Source: Magnetococcales bacterium
GTDB taxonomy: Bacteria; Pseudomonadota; Magnetococcia; Magnetococcales; JADGAP01
DNA: 38,010 nt
NCBI GenBank assembly: GCA_015231965.1
Contig: JADGAP010000012.1
Location: 1-38,010 of the forward strand
Direction: 5' to 3'
Shown here: in pieces, positions 1,901 to 15,421 of the stretch
Numbering within the stretch: the first letter of the stretch is position 1
Layout: each line of letters opens with the position of its first letter
Translations under genes and position numbers: made by a program
Notes under the pieces: model-generated
The model's input: only the letters and a program-made list of their open reading frames with translations
Databases searched by the model: none
What the model was told of the DNA's origin: nothing

Positions 1901-4354
1901 TCAAAGGGGCGTGGCCTCCAGGCGGGCCACCATCACGTTTCGTCCGGGCTCTTTTTGCAGCAGGGCGCGGCGGGAGGATTCGGCCTGTTCCCGATTGGCA
2001 TGGCGTCCGATGCGCACCACCTGCCACGTGGATCCATCCTTCCGGGTCGTCTCCTGGACAAAGGGAGAGAATCCCTTGGCCCGCCACGCGGCGGCCTCGG
2101 CGTCCGCCTTGGGGCGTTGGCGATAGGCGGCCACTTGCACGGTGTATCCGCTGGGGAGCGGGGCGATTTGCGGCCCTTTTCCTCCGGCGGAGGCTTTCAG
2201 GGTGTTTTCATCGACGCCCCGGGCTTGCCAAAATCCGGCGGGAACCGTCGCGGCGGCGGGCGGTTTTTTCCTGGAGGCGACGGGGTCGGAAGCCGGGATC
2301 GGGTTGGCGGGTGCGGCGGCGACGGCGACGCCTCCGGTGGAGGGGGCGGCGGGGGAGAAAAGATCTCCCAACCACGCAAAAAGGGTTCCCAACCAGGAAC
2401 CGATATCCGACTCCGACGGGGCGACGGCCTTGGGCTTGGCGTCGGTGGGGGGGGGCGAGGCGGATTTTTTCTCCACCACGGCGGCGGCTTGGACCGGGGC
2501 GGCGAGGAGCGGCGAGGGGCCCTCGCTGAATTGTGGCGGGGTGATGCTGGGGGCGGCGACGACGGCGAATTCCAGATGGGCCGTGGGGGCGTCGCTGCGG
2601 CGGGCTTGGGCGTGGCCGTCACCGCCGGGACCGGGGGCGCGAAGGGAGGCCCCCTGGTCCGAGCCGAGGCCATCGCCTTTGTCGCTGCTCGGTTTGGGAG
2701 CGCCGTTATCGTCGTCTTTGCCGTCGTCGGTTGCGCCGGATTGATCGTCGTCGGATGGGTCGTCGTCGCCCTTGTCCGCGGGTTTGGCCTTGTCCGCAGG
2801 CTTGGCCCCGGGTTTATCCACGGGCTTGGATTCGGGCTTGGATTCGGGCTTGGCGGCGGGGGGAGGCGGAGCCTCCTTGGCCGCAGGGGCGGCGGCGGGT
2901 GCCTGGGCACCGTTGTTTCCGGACTCGGCGCTCTTTTGGGCGGGACGGGCGCTCTCTTTCCTGGCGGCGGCGGGACGCTGGGCGGAGGGGGGGGCCGGTT
3001 GGTCGCTTTGGATCTCCGTCACCCGGAACAGCTCGGGGGCCATCAACCCGGTGGCGTTCATCAATTCGTAAAAGCCCAACGTCCGGTCGGTTTCGGCACC
3101 CAGCAGCTTGATCTGGGCGTCGATGAGCTTGTTTTCCTCGTCCAGAATATCCAGCAGGGATTGGGTTCCCTTGTGCATCTGTTCCTTGGCCCGATCGAGA
3201 TATTCCCGGGCCACCACCGCCTGCACCCGCAAATGTTCCGCCTTGAGTTCGGCCTTTTTCAGCTTGGCCCAGGCGTTGCGGATCGATTTGCGGTTTTCGA
3301 TCACCGCTCGTTCCGCGACGAATCTCAACTCATCCATCCGCGCCTGATTGGTCTTTTCGGCGTTGTAATCCTTCAACTGATTGAAGATATTGTATTTCAA
3401 CTCCACCTTGATCTGGTACTCGTCCTTGTTTCCCGGGGTTCCGCCGTCGTCGTATTTGTTGGTGCTGGTGCCAATCAGATTGAGGGAGGGGTAGTAATAA
3501 TAGTTGGGGTCATCCATTGTTTTCACGCGCTCAACGCCCAGCTTGGCCATCAAATAGCCCGGCTCGGACTGGAGCATGACCGCGTCGGCATCCTCAAGGG
3601 TTTCGGGGCGTTGCGACCAGGGAACAAAGGGCCATTCGTACTGATCGACGCTTCCCGGATCCATGTGGAAGATGCGCTCGAACTGATTGGCGGAGGTCAT
3701 CAACTCGGTTTCCGCGTCCACCACCTGGGCCTCGGCCCCGGAGAGGGAGGACTTGGCCTTGAGGACATCGGCTCCCAGACCCGACCCCGCTTCCACCCGG
3801 GCGCTCTCCTGCTGGTGCAACTTGCGGATGTTGTCGGCGGTTTGACGCTGCAACTCCAGGGTGCGGGCGGCCTTGAGCAGCTGAACATAGGCGGTGACGC
3901 CCTGCATCAGGGCGTTCATCTCCTGCTTGCGCACCCCTTGGCGCCCCACCTCCGTCACGGTGGCCGCGACGTCGATGTTGGTATTGGTTTTTCCGAAGTC
4001 CCACAGCAGCTGCGTGATCTTGAGTTCCAACTTATCGGGGTCATAGGCGGTGCGCTGGCGGCCCGGATCCTTGTATTGGGTCTCCTGACCGGCGTAGGCG
4101 GTCATTTCCAGCTTGGGCAGCCACTCGTTTTCCGCCGTATCCTTGGCGATGAGGTTTTGTTGCAAGGCGGCCTTGCTGGAGTTCAACTCCTCGAATTTAT
4201 TCAAAAGATCGGGAATCAGCTCGTGGAACGCGGCGGCGTGTCCGGCGGAGGGGGAGGCCAGCCAGAGCCAACCGCAGAGCAGTCCGAGGGCGCGGGCGCC
4301 GAAGGAGGCCGAGGCGGGGGAGGTCGCGGCGGATGGAAGGTTCGGTTTAGCCAT
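1901..4354 (-). CDS. TolC-family outer membrane channel with a long charged linker and a C-terminal SPOR domain
   Basis: This 817-residue protein starts with a signal peptide (hydrophobic core LGLLCGWLWLASP, likely cleavage after GHA near residue 40). Residues ~40-450 look like a TolC/AggA-type outer membrane efflux protein: two similar helical halves, coiled-coil heptads, and a C-terminal segment with LLDILDEENKLIDAQIKLL. Residues ~455-735 are a low-complexity linker rich in Pro, Ala, Lys and Asp, with KPESKPESKPVDKP-type repeats. Residues ~737-817 (YTVQVAAYRQRP to the end) fit a SPOR domain, which in other proteins binds denuded septal peptidoglycan. The usual TolC is about 450-500 residues, so this is a fusion. 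It is first in the operon with the ABC exporter. The SPOR domain suggests, by inference, that the channel is anchored or placed at the division site or wall. Confidence 0.88.
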   Translation of the reverse strand: MAKPNLPSAATSPASASFGARALGLLCGWLWLASPSAGHAAAFHELIPDLLNKFEELNSSKAALQQNLIAKDTAENEWLPKLEMTAYAGQETQYKDPGRQRTAYDPDKLELKITQLLWDFGKTNTNIDVAATVTEVGRQGVRKQEMNALMQGVTAYVQLLKAARTLELQRQTADNIRKLHQQESARVEAGSGLGADVLKAKSSLSGAEAQVVDAETELMTSANQFERIFHMDPGSVDQYEWPFVPWSQRPETLEDADAVMLQSEPGYLMAKLGVERVKTMDDPNYYYYPSLNLIGTSTNKYDDGGTPGNKDEYQIKVELKYNIFNQLKDYNAEKTNQARMDELRFVAERAVIENRKSIRNAWAKLKKAELKAEHLRVQAVVAREYLDRAKEQMHKGTQSLLDILDEENKLIDAQIKLLGAETDRTLGFYELMNATGLMAPELFRVTEIQSDQPAPPSAQRPAAARKESARPAQKSAESGNNGAQAPAAAPAAKEAPPPPAAKPESKPESKPVDKPGAKPADKAKPADKGDDDPSDDDQSGATDDGKDDDNGAPKPSSDKGDGLGSDQGASLRAPGPGGDGHAQARRSDAPTAHLEFAVVAAPSITPPQFSEGPSPLLAAPVQAAAVVEKKSASPPPTDAKPKAVAPSESDIGSWLGTLFAWLGDLFSPAAPSTGGVAVAAAPANPIPASDPVASRKKPPAAATVPAGFWQARGVDENTLKASAGGKGPQIAPLPSGYTVQVAAYRQRPKADAEAAAWRAKGFSPFVQETTRKDGSTWQVVRIGRHANREQAESSRRALLQKEPGRNVMVARLEATPL

Positions 4355-4969: not shown

Positions 4970-7132
4970 ATGACCAGAAAACTCATCATCGCGCTTCTCG
5001 TGGTCGTGGCCGTGGCGGTGGTAGCGGTCCTGACGACGAAGTCTTTTTCCGGCGGGAAAAAGGATACCTACTTCCTCGGCTTGGCCGCCCCCTTGACCGG
5101 TGAATTCAAGGATGCGGGGCTCTCCATGAAGCGGGGCGTCGCCCTGGCCGTCAAGGAGATGCAGGAGAGCGGCGAACTGGGCGACCTCAACCTGGAACTC
5201 CAGGTGGGCGACGATCAGTCGGTGGTGGGCGACGCGAAAAACGCCGTCCAGGTGGCCAAGGAGTTGACCTCCAACGAAAAGCTGCTCGGCGTGGTGGGCC
5301 ACTACTTCAGCCAGTCCACCATCGAGGCCGACAAGGTTTACATCGAGAAAAAAATTCCGGTCATCACCCCCACCTCCACCCACCCGGATGTGACGGCGGG
5401 CAGCGACTGGACCTTCAGCGTCATCTTCGACGACGCCTATCAAGGCTCCTTCCTGGCCAACTACGTGTTGTGGGGTCTGGGCCGTCAGCGCATCGCCGTC
5501 ATTCACGCCACCAATCTCTACAGCGTTTCGCTCAAGGATCAATTCGTCAAGGAATTGGCGCGCAATCGCTGGCGCCCCAGCGTGGTGATCGAAGTCCCCC
5601 TGGATGAAATGAAGGGCGGCGGCGAGGCCTTCAACCCCGCCTCTCTGCAAGGCCGTTTGCAGGAGTTGCAGCAGGCCGACATCATCTTCATCCCCTTCAA
5701 CTATAAAAACGCCGCCAAGCTGGTGCGTTTTCTGAAAAACAAGGGAATCCGCGCCGACTTCATCGGGCCGGAGAGCGTGGGCGGCGACCTGTTCGTCCGC
5801 GAGGCGGGGGTCTACGCCGACAACGTCTACGCCATCACCCCCTTCCTGCCCAACCTTTACGGCGAAGAGGCCCGCCTCTTTCAAATGCACTTTTTGAAAG
5901 AGTACCAAACCAGCCCCGACTGGATCGCCACCTACGCCTACGAGGCGGTGCGCCTTTACGCCAAGGCCATCAAGGAGGTGGGGCCGGATCGCGAGGGGAT
6001 CAAGAACGCCCTGGCCCGGATCAACTCCGAGGCCAACGCCATGCCCAGCATCGCCGGCGACCTCTACTTCAACAGCGCCGGATCCACCAAACGGGCCATC
6101 GCCATCGGTCAGGTGAAGGAGGGGACCTACCAACCCGCCCGCTTCCAGATCACCCCGGTCAAGTTTCCCGAACTGGTGCGGGCGCAAAAAGACCCCGGCA
6201 TCGTCTTTTACTGGGACGGCCGGATGATGAAACGCACCACCCTCGTCTTCACCGGTCTTCACGTCAAGGAGATCCGCGAGTTCGATCCCATCCAGGGGTC
6301 GTTCAAGGCCGACTTCCTGCTCTGGTTCCGCTGGGATCCCAACCGCAACCCCAAGCTCTCTTTCGAAATGACCCACGGTCGGGTGGAGACGGTGCGCATC
6401 CGCGACATGCACCAGGACGCGGTGAACAAAAACAATTTCATCATGTACGACGTCTCCGCCACCATGAAGGACAACTTCAACCTGGAACAGTATCCCTTCG
6501 ACAAGCAGACGTTGCGCATCCGCATCATGCCCAAGTTTTCCTCCAACGTCGAGTTCGGCAAGGAGATGCCCGAGGAGGACGTGATGCTCATCACCGACAT
6601 CTCCGACGACTCCTACTACAAGCGCAAGCTCGACTTCGGATCGTGGGAGGATATCGGCCACATCCAGTTCACCGGGGCCAAGGACTACATCTGGAGCTAC
6701 CGCAGCCCCAAGTTCAATGGCAATCTGTACAAGCTGGATCACTCCATCTACAGCTACAACGTCCACATGCAGCGCAAGGTGACGCAGTTCGTGGTGACCC
6801 TGCTGCCGTTGTTGGTGATCGTGGTCTCGGCCTATCTCACCTTCTTCATCAGCTACGAATACGTGGCCTCCCGCATCTCCCTGGGCATCACCTCCATGTT
6901 GTCCGCCATGGCCTTCCACGGCGTCAACAAGATTCAGGTGGGGTATTTGGTCAAGTCGGACGTGTTCTTCATGCTCACCTATTGGCTGATCTTTTTCTCG
7001 ATCATGGCCACGGTGGTGGGCAGCGCCTTCCACGTGCGCAAGCAGACCGCGGCGGCCAACCGGGTGGATACGGTCTTTTTGGTGGCCTATCCCTTCATGC
7101 TGCTGGGAGTGGTGCTCTACCTCTTCTCCTGA
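4970..7132 (+). CDS. Periplasmic binding protein (Leu/Ile/Val type) fused to a pentameric ligand-gated ion channel
   Basis: This 720-residue protein joins two families. Residues 5-22 are a hydrophobic signal or anchor segment. Residues ~31-400 read as a type I periplasmic binding protein of the branched-chain amino acid family (AAPLTGEFKDAG, DDQSVVGDAKNAVQVAKEL, FDDAYQGSFLANYVL). Residues ~420-600 read as a pLGIC extracellular beta-sandwich, with the Cys-loop-equivalent YPFDKQ at 508-513. Four membrane helices follow: M1 ~605-627 with its proline (LLPLLVIVVSAY), M2 ~633-651, M3 ~662-690 and M4 ~699-720. M2 reads SRISLGITSML, with Arg at 0' (residue 635) and Leu at 9' (residue 644), very like glycine-receptor M2. 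There is no acidic residue at -1' or -2'. The protein has no cysteine at all, as in other prokaryotic pLGICs that lack the disulfide. The likely role is an inner-membrane channel gated by, or modulated through, a periplasmic ligand. The ligand is unknown. Confidence 0.92.
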   Translation: MTRKLIIALLVVVAVAVVAVLTTKSFSGGKKDTYFLGLAAPLTGEFKDAGLSMKRGVALAVKEMQESGELGDLNLELQVGDDQSVVGDAKNAVQVAKELTSNEKLLGVVGHYFSQSTIEADKVYIEKKIPVITPTSTHPDVTAGSDWTFSVIFDDAYQGSFLANYVLWGLGRQRIAVIHATNLYSVSLKDQFVKELARNRWRPSVVIEVPLDEMKGGGEAFNPASLQGRLQELQQADIIFIPFNYKNAAKLVRFLKNKGIRADFIGPESVGGDLFVREAGVYADNVYAITPFLPNLYGEEARLFQMHFLKEYQTSPDWIATYAYEAVRLYAKAIKEVGPDREGIKNALARINSEANAMPSIAGDLYFNSAGSTKRAIAIGQVKEGTYQPARFQITPVKFPELVRAQKDPGIVFYWDGRMMKRTTLVFTGLHVKEIREFDPIQGSFKADFLLWFRWDPNRNPKLSFEMTHGRVETVRIRDMHQDAVNKNNFIMYDVSATMKDNFNLEQYPFDKQTLRIRIMPKFSSNVEFGKEMPEEDVMLITDISDDSYYKRKLDFGSWEDIGHIQFTGAKDYIWSYRSPKFNGNLYKLDHSIYSYNVHMQRKVTQFVVTLLPLLVIVVSAYLTFFISYEYVASRISLGITSMLSAMAFHGVNKIQVGYLVKSDVFFMLTYWLIFFSIMATVVGSAFHVRKQTAAANRVDTVFLVAYPFMLLGVVLYLFS

Positions 7133-7192
7133 ACCCGGGTTCAACGCATCAAGATCGACCATGACCCCATGGGTTGAACGAAAGGCGCCCGC

Positions 7193-8737
7193 ATGTTGAA
7201 AATTAAATTGACCACCCCCATCCTGATCCTGGCGATATTGCTGGAGTCGCTGCTGATCGTCTCGACGCTGTCAAGCTATTACAGCGTCAATGGCCTGAGC
7301 CGGATGGTCGAGCGGGCGGACAAGCAGGAGATCGATCTGGTGCGTTCCGTCTCGGCCCTGACCCACGCCCAGATGGAACAGACCATGCGCTTCTCCGAGG
7401 TGCTGCAACACTTCATCACCGAGCAGCAGGATCGGTTTCGCGCCGCCGACAACAGCTTCGTCCAGACCGGGCAGCGCTTCGCCGACCTGATCAAGAACGC
7501 CCGGCGCATCGTGCAAATCGCCCTGGACGGGGCCTCGGGAACCCGCCGCGCCGAATTGGACGCCGTGCTGACCTCCCTCAACGAAATTGAAAAAGATCAC
7601 GCCAACTTTGAACACTGGTGCAGCACCATCTCCAACGGCCTCTCCCAACTCAAGTTTCAGACCGAGGAAGAGCAGTCGCTGCAAAAGTTCGACTCGGAGG
7701 AGGACAAGCAGGCCAAGTTCAAACAGTACCTCACCCAGACCGCCTTTCGTCTGAGCGAGGAGAGCAGCCGTCTGGAAAAGCGGTTCCAAACCCTGATCCG
7801 CATGACGGAAAAAATGACCGAGAACCTCCCCGCGGACGTTCGGAACAAGGCCGACGCCTCCCTCCTCATCACCATCGGCCTGTTGGTCGTCTCCCTGGCG
7901 GGATTGGCGCTGATCGGCTGGATTCTGCGGCGGATGATCGCCGGGTCGTTGCGTCGGCCGTTGTCCGAGGTCTCCCGGGGGATGGACGCCATCCACTCCG
8001 CCGCCGCCGAAAACGCCGCAGTGTGGCGACAACTCAAGGAGGCCCACGACAGCCGCGCCGGTTTCATGGAGAGCGCCGGACTCCTCTCCAGCCGTCTGAC
8101 GGATTTGGCCCGGGAGAGCCTGGAGGGGACGGGGCGGACCCGGGATCTGCTGGAACAAAACGAAGCCGAGGTGCGCTTGGCGGGGGATTCGCTGCGCAAG
8201 TACGGCTCCGAGGTGGAGCGGGCCCGCCAGACCGGACAGGAGGTGGGCGGCTTGATGCATCGTCTGGAAGAGGCCCTGCAACAGGCCAAGATGATGGCCG
8301 CCAACGCCGGGCTGCAGGCGGGCAAGAGCGAGGCCACCCGCGGATTCGTCATCTTCGCCGACGAAATCCGCACCCAGACGCAGCACGGTGCCGACGCCCT
8401 CAACACCCTGGCGGGTCAACTGGAAAAGTTGGTGCGGCAGCTGGAGGCGGGCTATCTGGAGACCCGCGCCGTGGAGCGGGGGTTCACCAACCTGGAAAGC
8501 TTTTCGGCCCAGGCCAAGGGGGTGGTGGATGAAATTCACGGGGTGATGCGCAATCAGTCCGCCATGACCAAGGATCTGACCGAGGCGACGGGGCGTCTCA
8601 AAACCCTGCAAGAGGGCGGTGCCGGTCTCATCGACAAGGGCGGCGCGGCGGTATCGACCCTGGAGAGCGAAAGCGAGACCATCGCCGCCGTCCTCAAGGA
8701 GCTGACGCTCCACGTTCGGGCCGAGACCAAGGCTTGA
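7193..8737 (+). CDS. Chemoreceptor-like (MCP-like) membrane protein with degenerate signalling tip
   Basis: This 514-residue protein starts 60 bases after the channel gene on the same strand. TM1 is at ~9-28, a periplasmic helical region spans ~30-218, and TM2 is at ~222-244 (LLITIGLLVVSLAGLALIGW). A HAMP-like stretch (RRPLSEVSRGMDAI) and a long cytoplasmic coiled coil follow. Residues ~365-397 resemble the hairpin tip of chemoreceptors: AANAGLQAGKSEATRGF followed by VIFADEIRTQ. Compared with the family consensus NAAxEAARAGExGRGF, the Glu is Gln, the Arg is Lys and one residue is missing, so normal CheA/CheW contacts may be lost. Its placement suggests it works with the upstream channel as a sensor partner. 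No che genes are nearby. Confidence 0.75.
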   Translation: MLKIKLTTPILILAILLESLLIVSTLSSYYSVNGLSRMVERADKQEIDLVRSVSALTHAQMEQTMRFSEVLQHFITEQQDRFRAADNSFVQTGQRFADLIKNARRIVQIALDGASGTRRAELDAVLTSLNEIEKDHANFEHWCSTISNGLSQLKFQTEEEQSLQKFDSEEDKQAKFKQYLTQTAFRLSEESSRLEKRFQTLIRMTEKMTENLPADVRNKADASLLITIGLLVVSLAGLALIGWILRRMIAGSLRRPLSEVSRGMDAIHSAAAENAAVWRQLKEAHDSRAGFMESAGLLSSRLTDLARESLEGTGRTRDLLEQNEAEVRLAGDSLRKYGSEVERARQTGQEVGGLMHRLEEALQQAKMMAANAGLQAGKSEATRGFVIFADEIRTQTQHGADALNTLAGQLEKLVRQLEAGYLETRAVERGFTNLESFSAQAKGVVDEIHGVMRNQSAMTKDLTEATGRLKTLQEGGAGLIDKGGAAVSTLESESETIAAVLKELTLHVRAETKA

Positions 8738-8784: not shown

Positions 8785-8830
8785 CCTTCCGCCGTCTCGC
8801 GACTCCTCTCGGGCGGCGGAAGGCGTTTTT
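8785..8830 (+). terminator. Rho-independent terminator closing the channel/receptor unit
   Basis: A perfect 10-bp stem, CCTTCCGCCG (8785-8794) with CGGCGGAAGG (8814-8823), is followed within three bases by five Ts (8826-8830). It lies 48 bases after the stop of the receptor-like gene, between convergent genes. Confidence 0.8.
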
Positions 8831-11960: not shown

Positions 11961-12683
11961 ATGGCCCGACTGATCATCCTGGACACCGAGACCACCGGCT
12001 TCGACCCCAACGAGGGCCATCGCATCGTCGAGATCGGCTGCGTCGAGCTGATCGATATGCGCCAGGGGGAGTCCCGCCAGTGGTACATCAATCCAGAGCG
12101 GGAGATTCCCCAGGAGGCCATCGAAATTCACGGCATCACCAACGAAAAGGTTCAGGACTCCCCGCTCTTCGCCAACATCGCCCGGGAGTTCCTCGAATTT
12201 CTCGGCGAGGGCCAACTGGCGGCGCACAACGCCTCGTTTGACCTGCGCTTTCTCAACGCCGAACTGGAGCGTTGCGGTCGCCCCGCCATCGCACCGGAGC
12301 GGGCCATCGACACCGTCACCCTGGCCCGGCGCAAATTTCCTGGCAGCCCCGCCAGCCTGGACGCCCTGTGCAAACGGTTCGGCATCGACAACAGCCAGCG
12401 CACCTACCACGGGGCGCTGCTGGACGCCCACCTGCTGGCCGAGGTCTATGTGGAGCTGGCGGGGGGGGCGCAATTTCGCCTCTCCTTCGAAACCGCCGCT
12501 CCGACGACCGCCGGGAGCGCCGCTCGCCGGGCCCAGCCCCCAATCCCCCGCCCCACCCGGCCCCGCCGCTCCTGGCCCATCCCCCCCGACGAGGAAAAAT
12601 TGCACGCCGCCTACCTGGAAAAGTTGCAAAAAGAGTCCGGCGACTGCGTTTGGCTCAGGCTGGAACCCCCTGCGGTTTCGTAA
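11961..12683 (+). CDS. dnaQ: DNA polymerase III epsilon subunit (proofreading 3'-5' exonuclease)
   Basis: This 240-residue protein is a DEDDh exonuclease. Exo I is LDTETTGFDP at residues 7-16, Exo II is AAHNASFDLRFL near 90, and Exo III is YHGALLDAHLLAEVY near 150, with the His and Asp at the expected spacing. The ~60-residue tail after the exonuclease fold is the part that in DnaQ contacts the polymerase subunit. It ends with HAAYLEKLQKESGDCVW, typical of DnaQ. The gene starts 3 bases after parC, so translation is probably coupled. The length matches the family (~230-245). Confidence 0.95.
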   Translation: MARLIILDTETTGFDPNEGHRIVEIGCVELIDMRQGESRQWYINPEREIPQEAIEIHGITNEKVQDSPLFANIAREFLEFLGEGQLAAHNASFDLRFLNAELERCGRPAIAPERAIDTVTLARRKFPGSPASLDALCKRFGIDNSQRTYHGALLDAHLLAEVYVELAGGAQFRLSFETAAPTTAGSAARRAQPPIPRPTRPRRSWPIPPDEEKLHAAYLEKLQKESGDCVWLRLEPPAVS

Positions 12684-12754
12684 CCTTATCTTTCCATTAA
12701 TCTTTTTCCTTCCTTTGTGGTCCGCGAGTCGTTCTGTGTGAAATCACGCGCCGG

Positions 12755-12768
12755 TTGACCCAAGTCAA
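12755..12768. promoter_or_regulatory. FNR/DNR/NNR-type binding site
   Basis: TTGAC-CCAA-GTCAA is a perfect palindrome matching the CRP/FNR-family consensus (TTGAN6TCAA), in the TTGAC form often seen at NO-responsive Dnr/Nnr sites. It is centred at 12761.5, 41-42 bases upstream of the start site predicted from the -10 at 12791. That is the classic class II activator position. It would drive the heme-copper enzyme operon under low oxygen or nitrogen oxides. Confidence 0.75.
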
Positions 12769-12790
12769 ACCCTTCGTCGACAGCTCCCCC

Positions 12791-12796
12791 TAAGAT
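12791..12796 (+). promoter_or_regulatory. Candidate -10 element of the heme-copper operon
   Basis: TAAGAT lies 22 bases after the FNR-type box. There is no good -35, as expected for a class II activated promoter. The predicted start is near 12803, leaving a leader of about 146 bases. Confidence 0.5.
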
Positions 12797-12948
12797 GCGA
12801 AACATCCCGGTCCATTCATGGCGGGGGATGACCTGCGAATTTTTCCATGCGGCATTGGAGAAATGCGGTTTTTCGCACCCCGGTCTCGCCCGGACGTTCC
12901 GGCCCATCGACATTCAACGCAAACCGCTCTCAACGAGGAGGAGGGATT

Positions 12949-13107
12949 ATGGGTATAAGCAGCGAAACCGGATCCGAAAGGGTCCCTGTTCTGCAGCGGG
13001 TGCTGGACAACCCGTTCCTGCTGCTGTTTATCGGGGTCGTGATGCCGACGGTGTTCTACACCCTCTGGGGCGTCATGGAAGTTGTCAGCATTCCGCTGGC
13101 CAAGTGA
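12949..13107 (+). CDS. Small single-helix subunit of the heme-copper enzyme
   Basis: This 52-residue protein has a strong ribosome site (GAGGAGGAGGG just upstream of the ATG). An N-terminal cytoplasmic stretch is followed by one membrane helix, LLLFIGVVMPTVFYTLWGVM. Its size and position right before the CuA subunit match the small subunit IIa of ba3-type enzymes and the short membrane peptides found beside related complexes. It probably stabilises subunits I and II in the inner membrane. It is separated by 20 bases from the next gene. Confidence 0.75.
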   Translation: MGISSETGSERVPVLQRVLDNPFLLLFIGVVMPTVFYTLWGVMEVVSIPLAK

Positions 13108-13127
13108 GAAAGGGGGAGACCTGACCG

Positions 13128-13658
13128 ATGGCTATTACGCCTCCTTCGGAGAAAATTTGGTGGAATAGGCCCTTGGACAAGGTGGAGGGGTTGTGGATCC
13201 TCCTGGCCTTGGCCTGGTGCTTGATTCTCTTTCTGTGGATGCCCTACTGGCACATTTACGGCAAACAAAACCTCTCCAACGAAGCCTACCGCACCAGCCC
13301 CGACGCCTACGAAGCCAAGGCTCGCGCCTGGGCCGACAAGCACAAGGTGGGTGAGGAGAACGGCATCCCCGTGGTGGCCCCCCAGGATGGCGGCGACGTC
13401 TACATGCTCGGGCGGTTGTGGGAGTGGTGGCCTATCCTGCAGTTGAAGAAGGGCGTCACCTATCGTCTGCACCTCTCGTCCCTGGACTGGCAGCATGGCT
13501 TTTCCCTGCAGCCCACCAACATCAACTTGCAGGTTCTTCCTGGCTACGAAACGGTGATGAAAATCACCCCCGACCAGTCGGGATCATTCGGCGTGGTCTG
13601 CAATGAGTTCTGCGGCGTGGGGCACCATACCATGCTGGGCAAGATCTACGTGAAGTAA
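13128..13658 (+). CDS. CuA-containing subunit II of a heme-copper oxidoreductase
   Basis: This 176-residue protein has one N-terminal membrane helix (WILLALAWCLILFLWMPYW, ~24-43) and a periplasmic cupredoxin domain. The CuA ligands are visible: the His in LDWQHGF, then C158, C162, H166 and M169 in CNEFCGVGHHTM. The spacing equals that of the ba3 subunit II. It would accept electrons from cytochrome c and pass them to subunit I. In norSY-senC clusters of ammonia oxidisers, as I recall, the CuA subunit (NorS) sits in the same place, so this may be a NorS-like protein rather than an oxidase subunit. Confidence 0.9.
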   Translation: MAITPPSEKIWWNRPLDKVEGLWILLALAWCLILFLWMPYWHIYGKQNLSNEAYRTSPDAYEAKARAWADKHKVGEENGIPVVAPQDGGDVYMLGRLWEWWPILQLKKGVTYRLHLSSLDWQHGFSLQPTNINLQVLPGYETVMKITPDQSGSFGVVCNEFCGVGHHTMLGKIYVK

Positions 13659-13693
13659 GGGCTAAGGGACCAATCAAGGGAGGAGCGTCACCC

Positions 13694-15421
13694 ATGGCGA
13701 ACATGTTTCGACAGTGCCCGGATTCGGGGCTGTACTTTCACCGGGACGCCGAAGCGCTGATGAAGGCGCATGCGGTGTTGGCGGTGGTCTTTCTTCTGCT
13801 GGGCGGTGTTGGCGGATTGCTGATCGCCTTGACCCGAGCCCCCACAGTCCATTTGCTGAGCGCCGAAAACTTCTACATGGTGCTGACGTTCCACGGCACC
13901 GCCGTTTTGCTGTTCTGGATCATCTTCTTTGAAATCGCCGTACTCTACTTCGCCTCCTCGACGCTGTTGCGGGTGCGACCGGCGACTCCCTCCATCGGTT
14001 GGCTCGGTTTCCTGCTGATGTTGGGTGGGGCGATCATGACCACGGTGGCCATCTTTGCCGGCAACTCCAGCGTCATGTTCACCTCCTACGTCCCCATGCA
14101 GGCCTCGCCCTACTTCTATCTGGGCCTGATCCTCTTTGCGGTGGGGGCGCTGCTGGGCTGCTTCATCTTTCTGGGGACGCTGGTCATCGCCAAGGAAGAG
14201 AAGACCTATGAGGGGTCCATTCCGCTGGTGACCTTTGGTGCCGTGACGGCGGCCATCATCGCCATCTTCACCATCGCCACCGGTGCCATCATCCTCATCC
14301 CCACGTTCATGTGGTCGATGGGATGGATCTCCCACATCGATCCGGCGATGTACCGGGTTCTGTGGTGGGGCATGGGTCACTCCTCGCAGCAGATCAACGT
14401 GTCGGCGCACGTGGCGGTGTGGTATGCCATCGCCGCCATCGTCTTCGGTGCCAAGCCCATGTCGGAAAAGGTGAGCCGCGGGGCCTTCCTGCTCTACATC
14501 CTCTTCCTGCAACTGGCCAGCGCCCATCACCTGCTGGCTGACCCGGGCATCAGCTCCAACTGGAAGGTCTTCAACACCTCCTACGCCATGTACCTGGCGG
14601 TGCTGGCCAGCATGATCCACGGCCTCACCGTGCCCGGCTCCATCGAAGTGGCGCAACGCAAGAAGGGCTTCAACAACGGCCTGTTCGAGTGGTTGACCAA
14701 GGCCCCCTGGGGCAATCCGGTCTTTTCCGGCATGTTCCTGTCGCTGATCATCTTCGGCTTCATCGGCGGCATCACCGGCGTGGTCATGGGGACGGAACAG
14801 ATCAACCTCATCATCCACAACACCATCTTCGTTCCCGCGCACTTCCACGCCACCGTGGCGGTGGGCACGACCCTGGCGTTCATGGCCATCACCTACTTCC
14901 TGATTCCGGTCCTCTTCCGGCGCAAGCTGGTGATGCCGGGCCTGGCCAAGTGGCAGCCCTACATCTTCTCCGCGGGCATGATGATGCTGATCATGTTCCT
15001 GCTGGGCGCTGGCACCCTGGGCGTGCCCCGTCGTCACTGGGATGTCAACTTCGCCGACGCGGTGCTGAAGTATGAGTTCGCCGGAACCGCCATCACCTTG
15101 CTGGGTCTGGCGGCGGTGGGCGCGGTGTTGGCGGCGGTGGGCGGCGCGTTGTACTGCGTCATCGCCGTCTTCTCGCTGGTCTTCGGCGAAAAGCTTGATC
15201 CCCACGCCGGTCTGCTGCAAAGCTTTGGCGTGCCTTTGTCCCAGGCGGCCTACACCGTGGATCGTCCCAGCACCTTGGGTCTGTCGGCGGTGGAAACCCA
15301 CGGCCACGGTGAGGTGAGCGCCCCGGGAACCTTCGCCCTGGCGTTGGTCTTCCTGCTCTCCTTCGTGGTCTACTTCTTCATCAACGCCAAGTATCTGGCG
15401 TCCGTATGGCCCATGGGCTGA
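13694..15421 (+). CDS. Heme-copper oxidoreductase subunit I lacking the cross-linked Tyr; candidate sNOR-type NO reductase
   Basis: This 575-residue polytopic protein has about 13 membrane helices and aligns by motif with B-type (ba3) enzymes. Low-spin heme ligands are H67 (LTFHGTAV) and H385. The active-site heme ligand is H383 (VPAHFHATV). CuB ligands are H229 (GHSSQQ) and H278/H279 (SAHHLLADPG). The 49-residue spacing between H229 and H278 equals that of Thermus ba3. In oxygen reductases of this type the residue four after the first CuB His is the cross-linked Tyr (HPxVY); here it is Q233. The enzyme therefore probably cannot do normal O2 reduction and may reduce NO. A Tyr sits ten residues before H278, so a cbb3-like Tyr from the next helix is an alternative. 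It is commonly annotated as cytochrome c oxidase subunit I. Confidence 0.92.
   Translation: MANMFRQCPDSGLYFHRDAEALMKAHAVLAVVFLLLGGVGGLLIALTRAPTVHLLSAENFYMVLTFHGTAVLLFWIIFFEIAVLYFASSTLLRVRPATPSIGWLGFLLMLGGAIMTTVAIFAGNSSVMFTSYVPMQASPYFYLGLILFAVGALLGCFIFLGTLVIAKEEKTYEGSIPLVTFGAVTAAIIAIFTIATGAIILIPTFMWSMGWISHIDPAMYRVLWWGMGHSSQQINVSAHVAVWYAIAAIVFGAKPMSEKVSRGAFLLYILFLQLASAHHLLADPGISSNWKVFNTSYAMYLAVLASMIHGLTVPGSIEVAQRKKGFNNGLFEWLTKAPWGNPVFSGMFLSLIIFGFIGGITGVVMGTEQINLIIHNTIFVPAHFHATVAVGTTLAFMAITYFLIPVLFRRKLVMPGLAKWQPYIFSAGMMMLIMFLLGAGTLGVPRRHWDVNFADAVLKYEFAGTAITLLGLAAVGAVLAAVGGALYCVIAVFSLVFGEKLDPHAGLLQSFGVPLSQAAYTVDRPSTLGLSAVETHGHGEVSAPGTFALALVFLLSFVVYFFINAKYLASVWPMG

Follow-up and report, generated by a model that had tools for sequence, protein, structure and literature searches.

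The window analysed here is a stretch of 38,010 nucleotides and comprises the whole of a single contig in the draft genome of a member of the Magnetococcales. It harbours two open reading frames (ORFs) in the same orientation (Table 1), while the best-scoring ORFs flanking this pair within the window are, on both sides, located on the opposite strand. A preliminary description of this DNA had placed an MCP-like gene 60 bases after a fusion channel, and both the ORF coordinates and the domain matches reported below agree with it. The same description had the pair closed by a perfect 10-bp terminator. Such an inverted repeat is indeed present, 47 nt beyond the end of the region it had delimited, with a fold of -32.3 kcal/mol (z -3.8) that none of the shuffled sequences equalled; an automated terminator scan misses this element because its loop is 19 nt long. 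Folding of the 60-nt gap between the two genes yielded no significant hairpin (z -0.8).

Table 1. Features of the channel-chemoreceptor gene pair and its terminator (window positions).
Feature	Position	Strand	Details	Basis
PBP-I-pLGIC fusion channel (gene 1)	4970..7132	+	720 aa	
N-terminal hydrophobic helix	4970..5047	+	aa 2-26; signal peptide or membrane anchor	AF2 model
LivJ-type periplasmic binding protein domain	5072..6121	+	aa 35-384	
pLGIC extracellular beta-sandwich	6203..6775	+	aa 412-602; Pro-loop YPFDKQ, no Cys-loop	
Four-helix channel domain	6779..7126	+	aa 604-719	
Intergenic gap	7133..7192	+	60 nt; without terminator	
Chemoreceptor-like partner (gene 2)	7193..8737	+	514 aa	
Partner periplasmic four-helix bundle	7277..7825	+	aa 29-211; conserved island	
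TM2 region	7826..7942	+	aa 212-250; runs directly into hairpin, no HAMP	
Cytoplasmic antiparallel hairpin	7955..8731	+	aa 255-513; 36-heptad length	
Chemoreceptor signalling tip	8273..8386	+	aa 361-398; conserved island	
Intrinsic terminator	8785..8830	+	10-bp perfect stem 8785-8794/8814-8823; T5 8826-8830	

The product of the first gene combines a periplasmic binding protein (PBP) domain with a pentameric ligand-gated ion channel (pLGIC). Pfam recognises Peripla_BP_6 at residues 35-384 (4.2e-35) and Neur_chan_memb at residues 610-707 (1.5e-4), and NCBIfam assigns LGIC_1 (2.1e-11). The binding domain matches the solved structure 4gnr over 343 residues (Z 44.7, rmsd 2.0) and thus has a two-lobe type I fold. 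Its residues S114, T137 and E268, which are invariant or nearly so, align with S79, T102 and E226 of leucine-binding protein (LBP), which there contact the amino-acid head group. This LivJ-type cap would have a small solute as its ligand, an amino acid being the most likely candidate. In the AF2 model of the protein, a beta-sandwich ligand-binding domain (LBD) is followed by four transmembrane (TM) helices. The Foldseek and VIA lists obtained for the whole channel are both filled by binding proteins and were dropped as evidence for the pLGIC part, which was therefore judged from sequence profiles: across the LBD and the TM domain, the channel profile matches chains of GLIC, GABA-A, GlyR and GluCl at about E 1e-15 or better. 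A Pro-loop replaces the Cys-loop in all 21 aligned channels, with the motif YPFDxQ (FPFDSQ in L106). The pore helix M2 has R0' and, at -1', S or T in the copies from Magnetococcales and A in that of the Nitrospirota bacterium XS-1 (see below), with no Glu at this position; these residues resemble those of anion-type receptors and may point to an anion-type selectivity. Between M3 and M4 the model has a linker of about four residues, so that the channel is almost without a cytoplasmic part, and an output domain could therefore come from a partner protein.

The neighbouring gene had been regarded as encoding a "receptor-like coiled coil", which is correct; more precisely, the protein has a chemoreceptor hairpin of full length but neither HAMP nor methylation sites. 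MCPsignal lies under Pfam's cut-off in the window partner (2.5e-5) and is detected in 18 of the 19 members of the partner family. The family profile aligns with residues 258-512 of E. coli Tsr (E=2.7e-28, columns 258-511) in a nearly one-to-one register, and the top Foldseek match of the partner model is the E. coli core signalling unit. For the periplasmic domain, TarH was found in seven of 19 members, and a search of solved structures returned weak or chance helical matches only. HAMP is usual, though not universal, in MCPs; it is missing among the families that match the 19 partner members at E <= 0.01, and the partner model likewise has TM2 passing directly into the hairpin. The methylation consensus motif occurs in only 3 of 20 partners, once in each and close to the C terminus; two to four such motifs are present in nine of ten ordinary MCPs from related genomes.

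Conservation within the partner family is concentrated in two islands. The tip has a mean pairwise identity of 0.52 and the periplasmic domain one of 0.42, compared with 0.18 in the intervening arms, a pattern that would be expected if both ends of the protein make contacts. The partner is therefore unlike a decaying pseudogene, and selection appears to hold both ends. Equivalents of E385 and R388 are retained in nearly all partners, and the turn of the tip has one residue fewer than in canonical receptors. The window partner has the most divergent tip, with Q and K at the E385 and R388 positions and the F373 equivalent lost, and coupling to the kinase is consequently least certain in the window's own genome. 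In one other genome (G016) the partner gene (L036:10036-11773) contains a frameshift in a run of G near TM2, which may represent a sequencing error or real decay. Lack of HAMP and methylation sites, unconserved arms and the divergent window tip would all suit an auxiliary or anchoring subunit that contributes to gating or assembly of the channel and whose tip serves only to place the channel in polar arrays, without control of the kinase. An anchor, however, need not keep a full 36-heptad hairpin and E385/R388-like positions in nearly all copies, and we consider such a role unlikely.

A scan of contigs with single sequences revealed no relatives, which were recovered by an alignment-based scan. 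The fusion channel is present in 19 of the 61 genomes searched, all 19 of them from the same order. Outside the window, downstream DNA is available at 18 of 21 channel places, and all 18 have a chemoreceptor-like gene next in the same orientation, usually within 100 nt of the channel. Conservation of the gene pair across genomes had been proposed as a check on the pairing, and it is strict: in the 20 loci with downstream DNA (these 18, the window and XS-1), channel and partner are adjacent throughout, and clustering of the neighbouring genes found these two families alone in 20 of 20 loci, the next commonest neighbour reaching seven. The two genes also co-occur. Among 48 genomes of the order, the profile of the partner periplasmic domain matches strongly in 18 of 19 channel carriers and in none of the 29 others; in the exceptional genome (G044, an assembly of 730 contigs) the channel is cut at a contig end. 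In G005 the channel runs off its contig, and an intact partner begins 130 nt into another one. Two genomes (G040 and G042) possess two channels and two partners each, and paralogous pairs within single genomes keep their own kind of partner. Adjacency, co-occurrence and these matched paralogues support the two-gene unit proposed in the preliminary description; the signalling routes it offered, ion flux or direct contact and perhaps taxis, are more conjectural. Distances between partner periplasmic domains correlate more closely with those between channel LBDs (rho 0.88) than with those between TM domains (0.69), although such correlations are partly expected for any co-inherited genes.

Weaker matches of the periplasmic profile are ordinary four-helix MCPs or histidine kinases, and none of those inspected was seen to adjoin a channel. 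This kinship with ordinary sensors of the order, which extends to a His and a Glu in common, would be consistent with two independent, co-regulated sensors, the partner being a fast-evolving ordinary MCP with a periplasmic ligand of its own. Strong profile matches are nevertheless confined to channel carriers, paralogous pairs are matched, and the ordinary relatives retain HAMP-like linkers, canonical tips and methylation motifs, all of which makes independent sensors distinctly improbable. Even less can be said for mere hitch-hiking, that is, a chance adjacency inherited from one ancestor without any functional link. Most loci do come from one order and are hence non-independent, but the genes on both flanks are scrambled, and none of the other families recurs at more than 7 of 20 loci. 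Channel sequences have drifted to 38-50 % identity, and a second phylum has the pair in intact form; this explanation is strongly disfavoured.

As controls, about 21 other pLGIC loci of the order and of further Pseudomonadota were inspected, among them several distant PBP-pLGICs and some loci cut by contig ends. None has an adjacent chemoreceptor gene, and a general placement of pLGICs beside MCPs was accordingly rejected; only one of these loci has an ordinary MCP anywhere in the DNA inspected, about 2.3 kb away on the opposite strand. The pairing is therefore a trait of this channel subfamily and not of bacterial pLGICs as such.

The copy outside the order (L090) is that of Candidatus Magnetocorallium paracelense XS-1, a magnetotactic member of the Nitrospirota (PMC10278575). 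The XS-1 channel shares 38 % identity with that of the window, and the partner is located 287 nt downstream. Among the 296 Nitrospirota genomes searched, XS-1 is the only one with the fusion channel; a second match, in G634, proved on inspection to be a plain LivJ gene beside livHM-like genes. We suspected the XS-1 locus to be misbinned, and some residual chance of this persists, but it resides on a 327-kb contig and its G+C content (0.37-0.44) fits that of the genome (41.25 %; PMC10278575). The simplest reading is a transfer between magnetotactic lineages, in either direction. The one-contig genome G010 of the order, which we take to be that of the magnetotactic Magnetococcus marinus MC-1, has no fusion channel at E 1e-60, and on this assumption the channel is dispensable for magnetotaxis as such. 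Behind the XS-1 pair (L090:9962-13025) lies a NaV-type channel with a C-terminal PilZ domain, followed by a nucleotide cyclase with hydrophobic N-terminal helices.

Since a partner adjoins every complete channel copy examined, channel and partner probably form one sensor that helps to steer swimming. We regard as the best explanation, with a probability of about 0.5, that the two genes are an operon encoding a two-protein receptor, in which the capped channel and a dedicated, HAMP-less chemoreceptor would dock in the periplasm and signal through CheA/CheW. Gene 1 would supply a pentameric ligand-gated channel that captures a small solute in the periplasm with its LivJ-like cap, and gene 2 a chemoreceptor devoted to this channel and stripped of HAMP and methylation sites. 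Docking would take place between the partner's periplasmic four-helix bundle and the channel ectodomain (cap and/or beta-sandwich), and the cytoplasmic hairpin of the partner would pass the signal to CheA/CheW via the conserved tip. The partner would probably sit within arrays of ordinary chemoreceptors and so bias swimming, while ion flow through the pore could provide a second output in parallel. In the host genome, 16 matches to the CheW domain and about 25 to ordinary MCPs lie above the cut-off. Somewhat more tentatively, the pLGIC may be seen as the ligand-sensing subunit of a chemoreceptor with both ionic and kinase outputs, a LivJ-capped channel driving CheA through its HAMP-less partner.

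Alternatively, ion flux itself might be the signal: the ligand would open the channel, membrane potential or cytoplasmic ions would shift, and the partner or the array would read this change with no need for contact. Although we hold this to be rather unlikely, it remains a serious rival because NaV-type channels adjoin two relevant loci, namely the XS-1 pair, which is trailed by such a channel with PilZ and by a nucleotide cyclase, and a distant PBP-pLGIC in G029, which is preceded by two of them in a tight same-strand cluster. Moreover, control of motility by the ion flux of bacterial pLGICs was proposed in 2004 (PMC549065). However, NaV neighbours occur at just 1 of 20 pairs, and ion flux leaves unexplained why the partner periplasmic domain is conserved and follows the channel LBD. 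Direct contact, as in the two-protein receptor, is favoured over ion flux, although unproven.

The pairing had been called undescribed in the preliminary description. This holds insofar as we found no account of a channel-chemoreceptor pair in the open-access literature, where partial coverage makes for weak evidence of absence, but the fusion channel and the idea of pLGICs acting in chemotaxis are already published (PMC549065), and any novelty is therefore limited to the pairing. The component parts are of known kinds; their fixed combination appears to be new. PBP-I-pLGIC fusions were described in 2004 from Magnetospirillum magnetotacticum and Bradyrhizobium japonicum (Tasneem et al., PMC549065). 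They share the domain order (PBP-I, pLGIC ligand-binding domain, four-helix channel), and a chemosensory role was suggested for them, but the neighbours reported were PBP-II, Cache and, once, a Na+/H+ transporter gene, with no chemoreceptor among them (PMC549065). The partner resembles E. coli MCPs of the Tsr/Tar type in its periplasmic four-helix bundle, two TM helices, 36-heptad hairpin and related tip, and differs from them by the lack of HAMP and methylation motifs, the deletion of one residue in the tip turn and the fixed position of its gene beside a channel. Indirect sensing by chemoreceptors via binding proteins is familiar from MglB-Trg and MalE-Tar. There, as proposed here, a periplasmic binding domain reports its ligand to the periplasmic domain of a chemoreceptor, but these systems use a soluble binding protein, whereas here an ion channel carries that domain as its cap. 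The N-terminal domain of DeCLIC is of another type than that of the fusion channel. DeCLIC, a bacterial pLGIC of solved structure, is comparable in that it also carries an extra periplasmic domain at its N terminus, and the abstract of its report describes no chemoreceptor partner (PMC9897478).

GLIC and other bacterial pLGICs are in wide use as structural models of human nerve receptors, and the channel studied here is a relative of the GABA and glycine receptors of nerve cells. A chemotactic role for bacterial pLGICs had been put forward in 2004 from general considerations alone (PMC549065), and according to a survey from 2016 the biological roles of microbial pLGICs had not yet been studied in vivo (PMC4795631). 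With a chemoreceptor partner that is strictly conserved, the 2004 proposal takes on a concrete molecular form. If the two-protein receptor is real, it would constitute a new input to chemotaxis, in which ligand binding on an ion channel is relayed sideways to a receptor without methylation adaptation, and, to our knowledge, the first physiological role assigned to a bacterial pLGIC.

Several other loci deserve mention. Type I secretion-type genes (HlyD, M50-HlyD, OEP) occur in some neighbourhoods of the pair, with HlyD families in about 7 of 20 loci; such regions are found at 1901-4354 (minus strand) of the window, where the upstream ORF is OEP-like by eye, and at L039:3022-7848 and 12099-14564. 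A type I binding domain and a pLGIC-LBD-like region are also found on an MscS-type pore (L099:5359-8769, L100:6374-9211, L101:5649-8612, L102:6243-9308, L104:2015-4699 and L094:4785-7904), the binding domain being recognised by Pfam in all six and the LBD-like region by profile match. One copy additionally has a cNMP-binding domain. These fusions, apparently numerous across Magnetococcales and with one representative in a Thiotrichales MAG, look like the same sensor moved onto a different channel. At L152:4721-8608 (minus strand) a distant PBP-pLGIC is tightly clustered with two NaV-type channels on the same strand (gaps of about 25 and 40 nt), and at L151:3915-7425 (minus strand) a PBP-pLGIC and a shorter second pLGIC overlap in tandem downstream of a PAS histidine kinase. 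Finally, genes resembling alpha-carbonic anhydrases by eye directly precede ordinary four-helix MCPs in three loci (L139:4845-7398, L140:3716-7185 and L144:4902-7411), an arrangement that suggests sensing of CO2 or bicarbonate by these MCPs.
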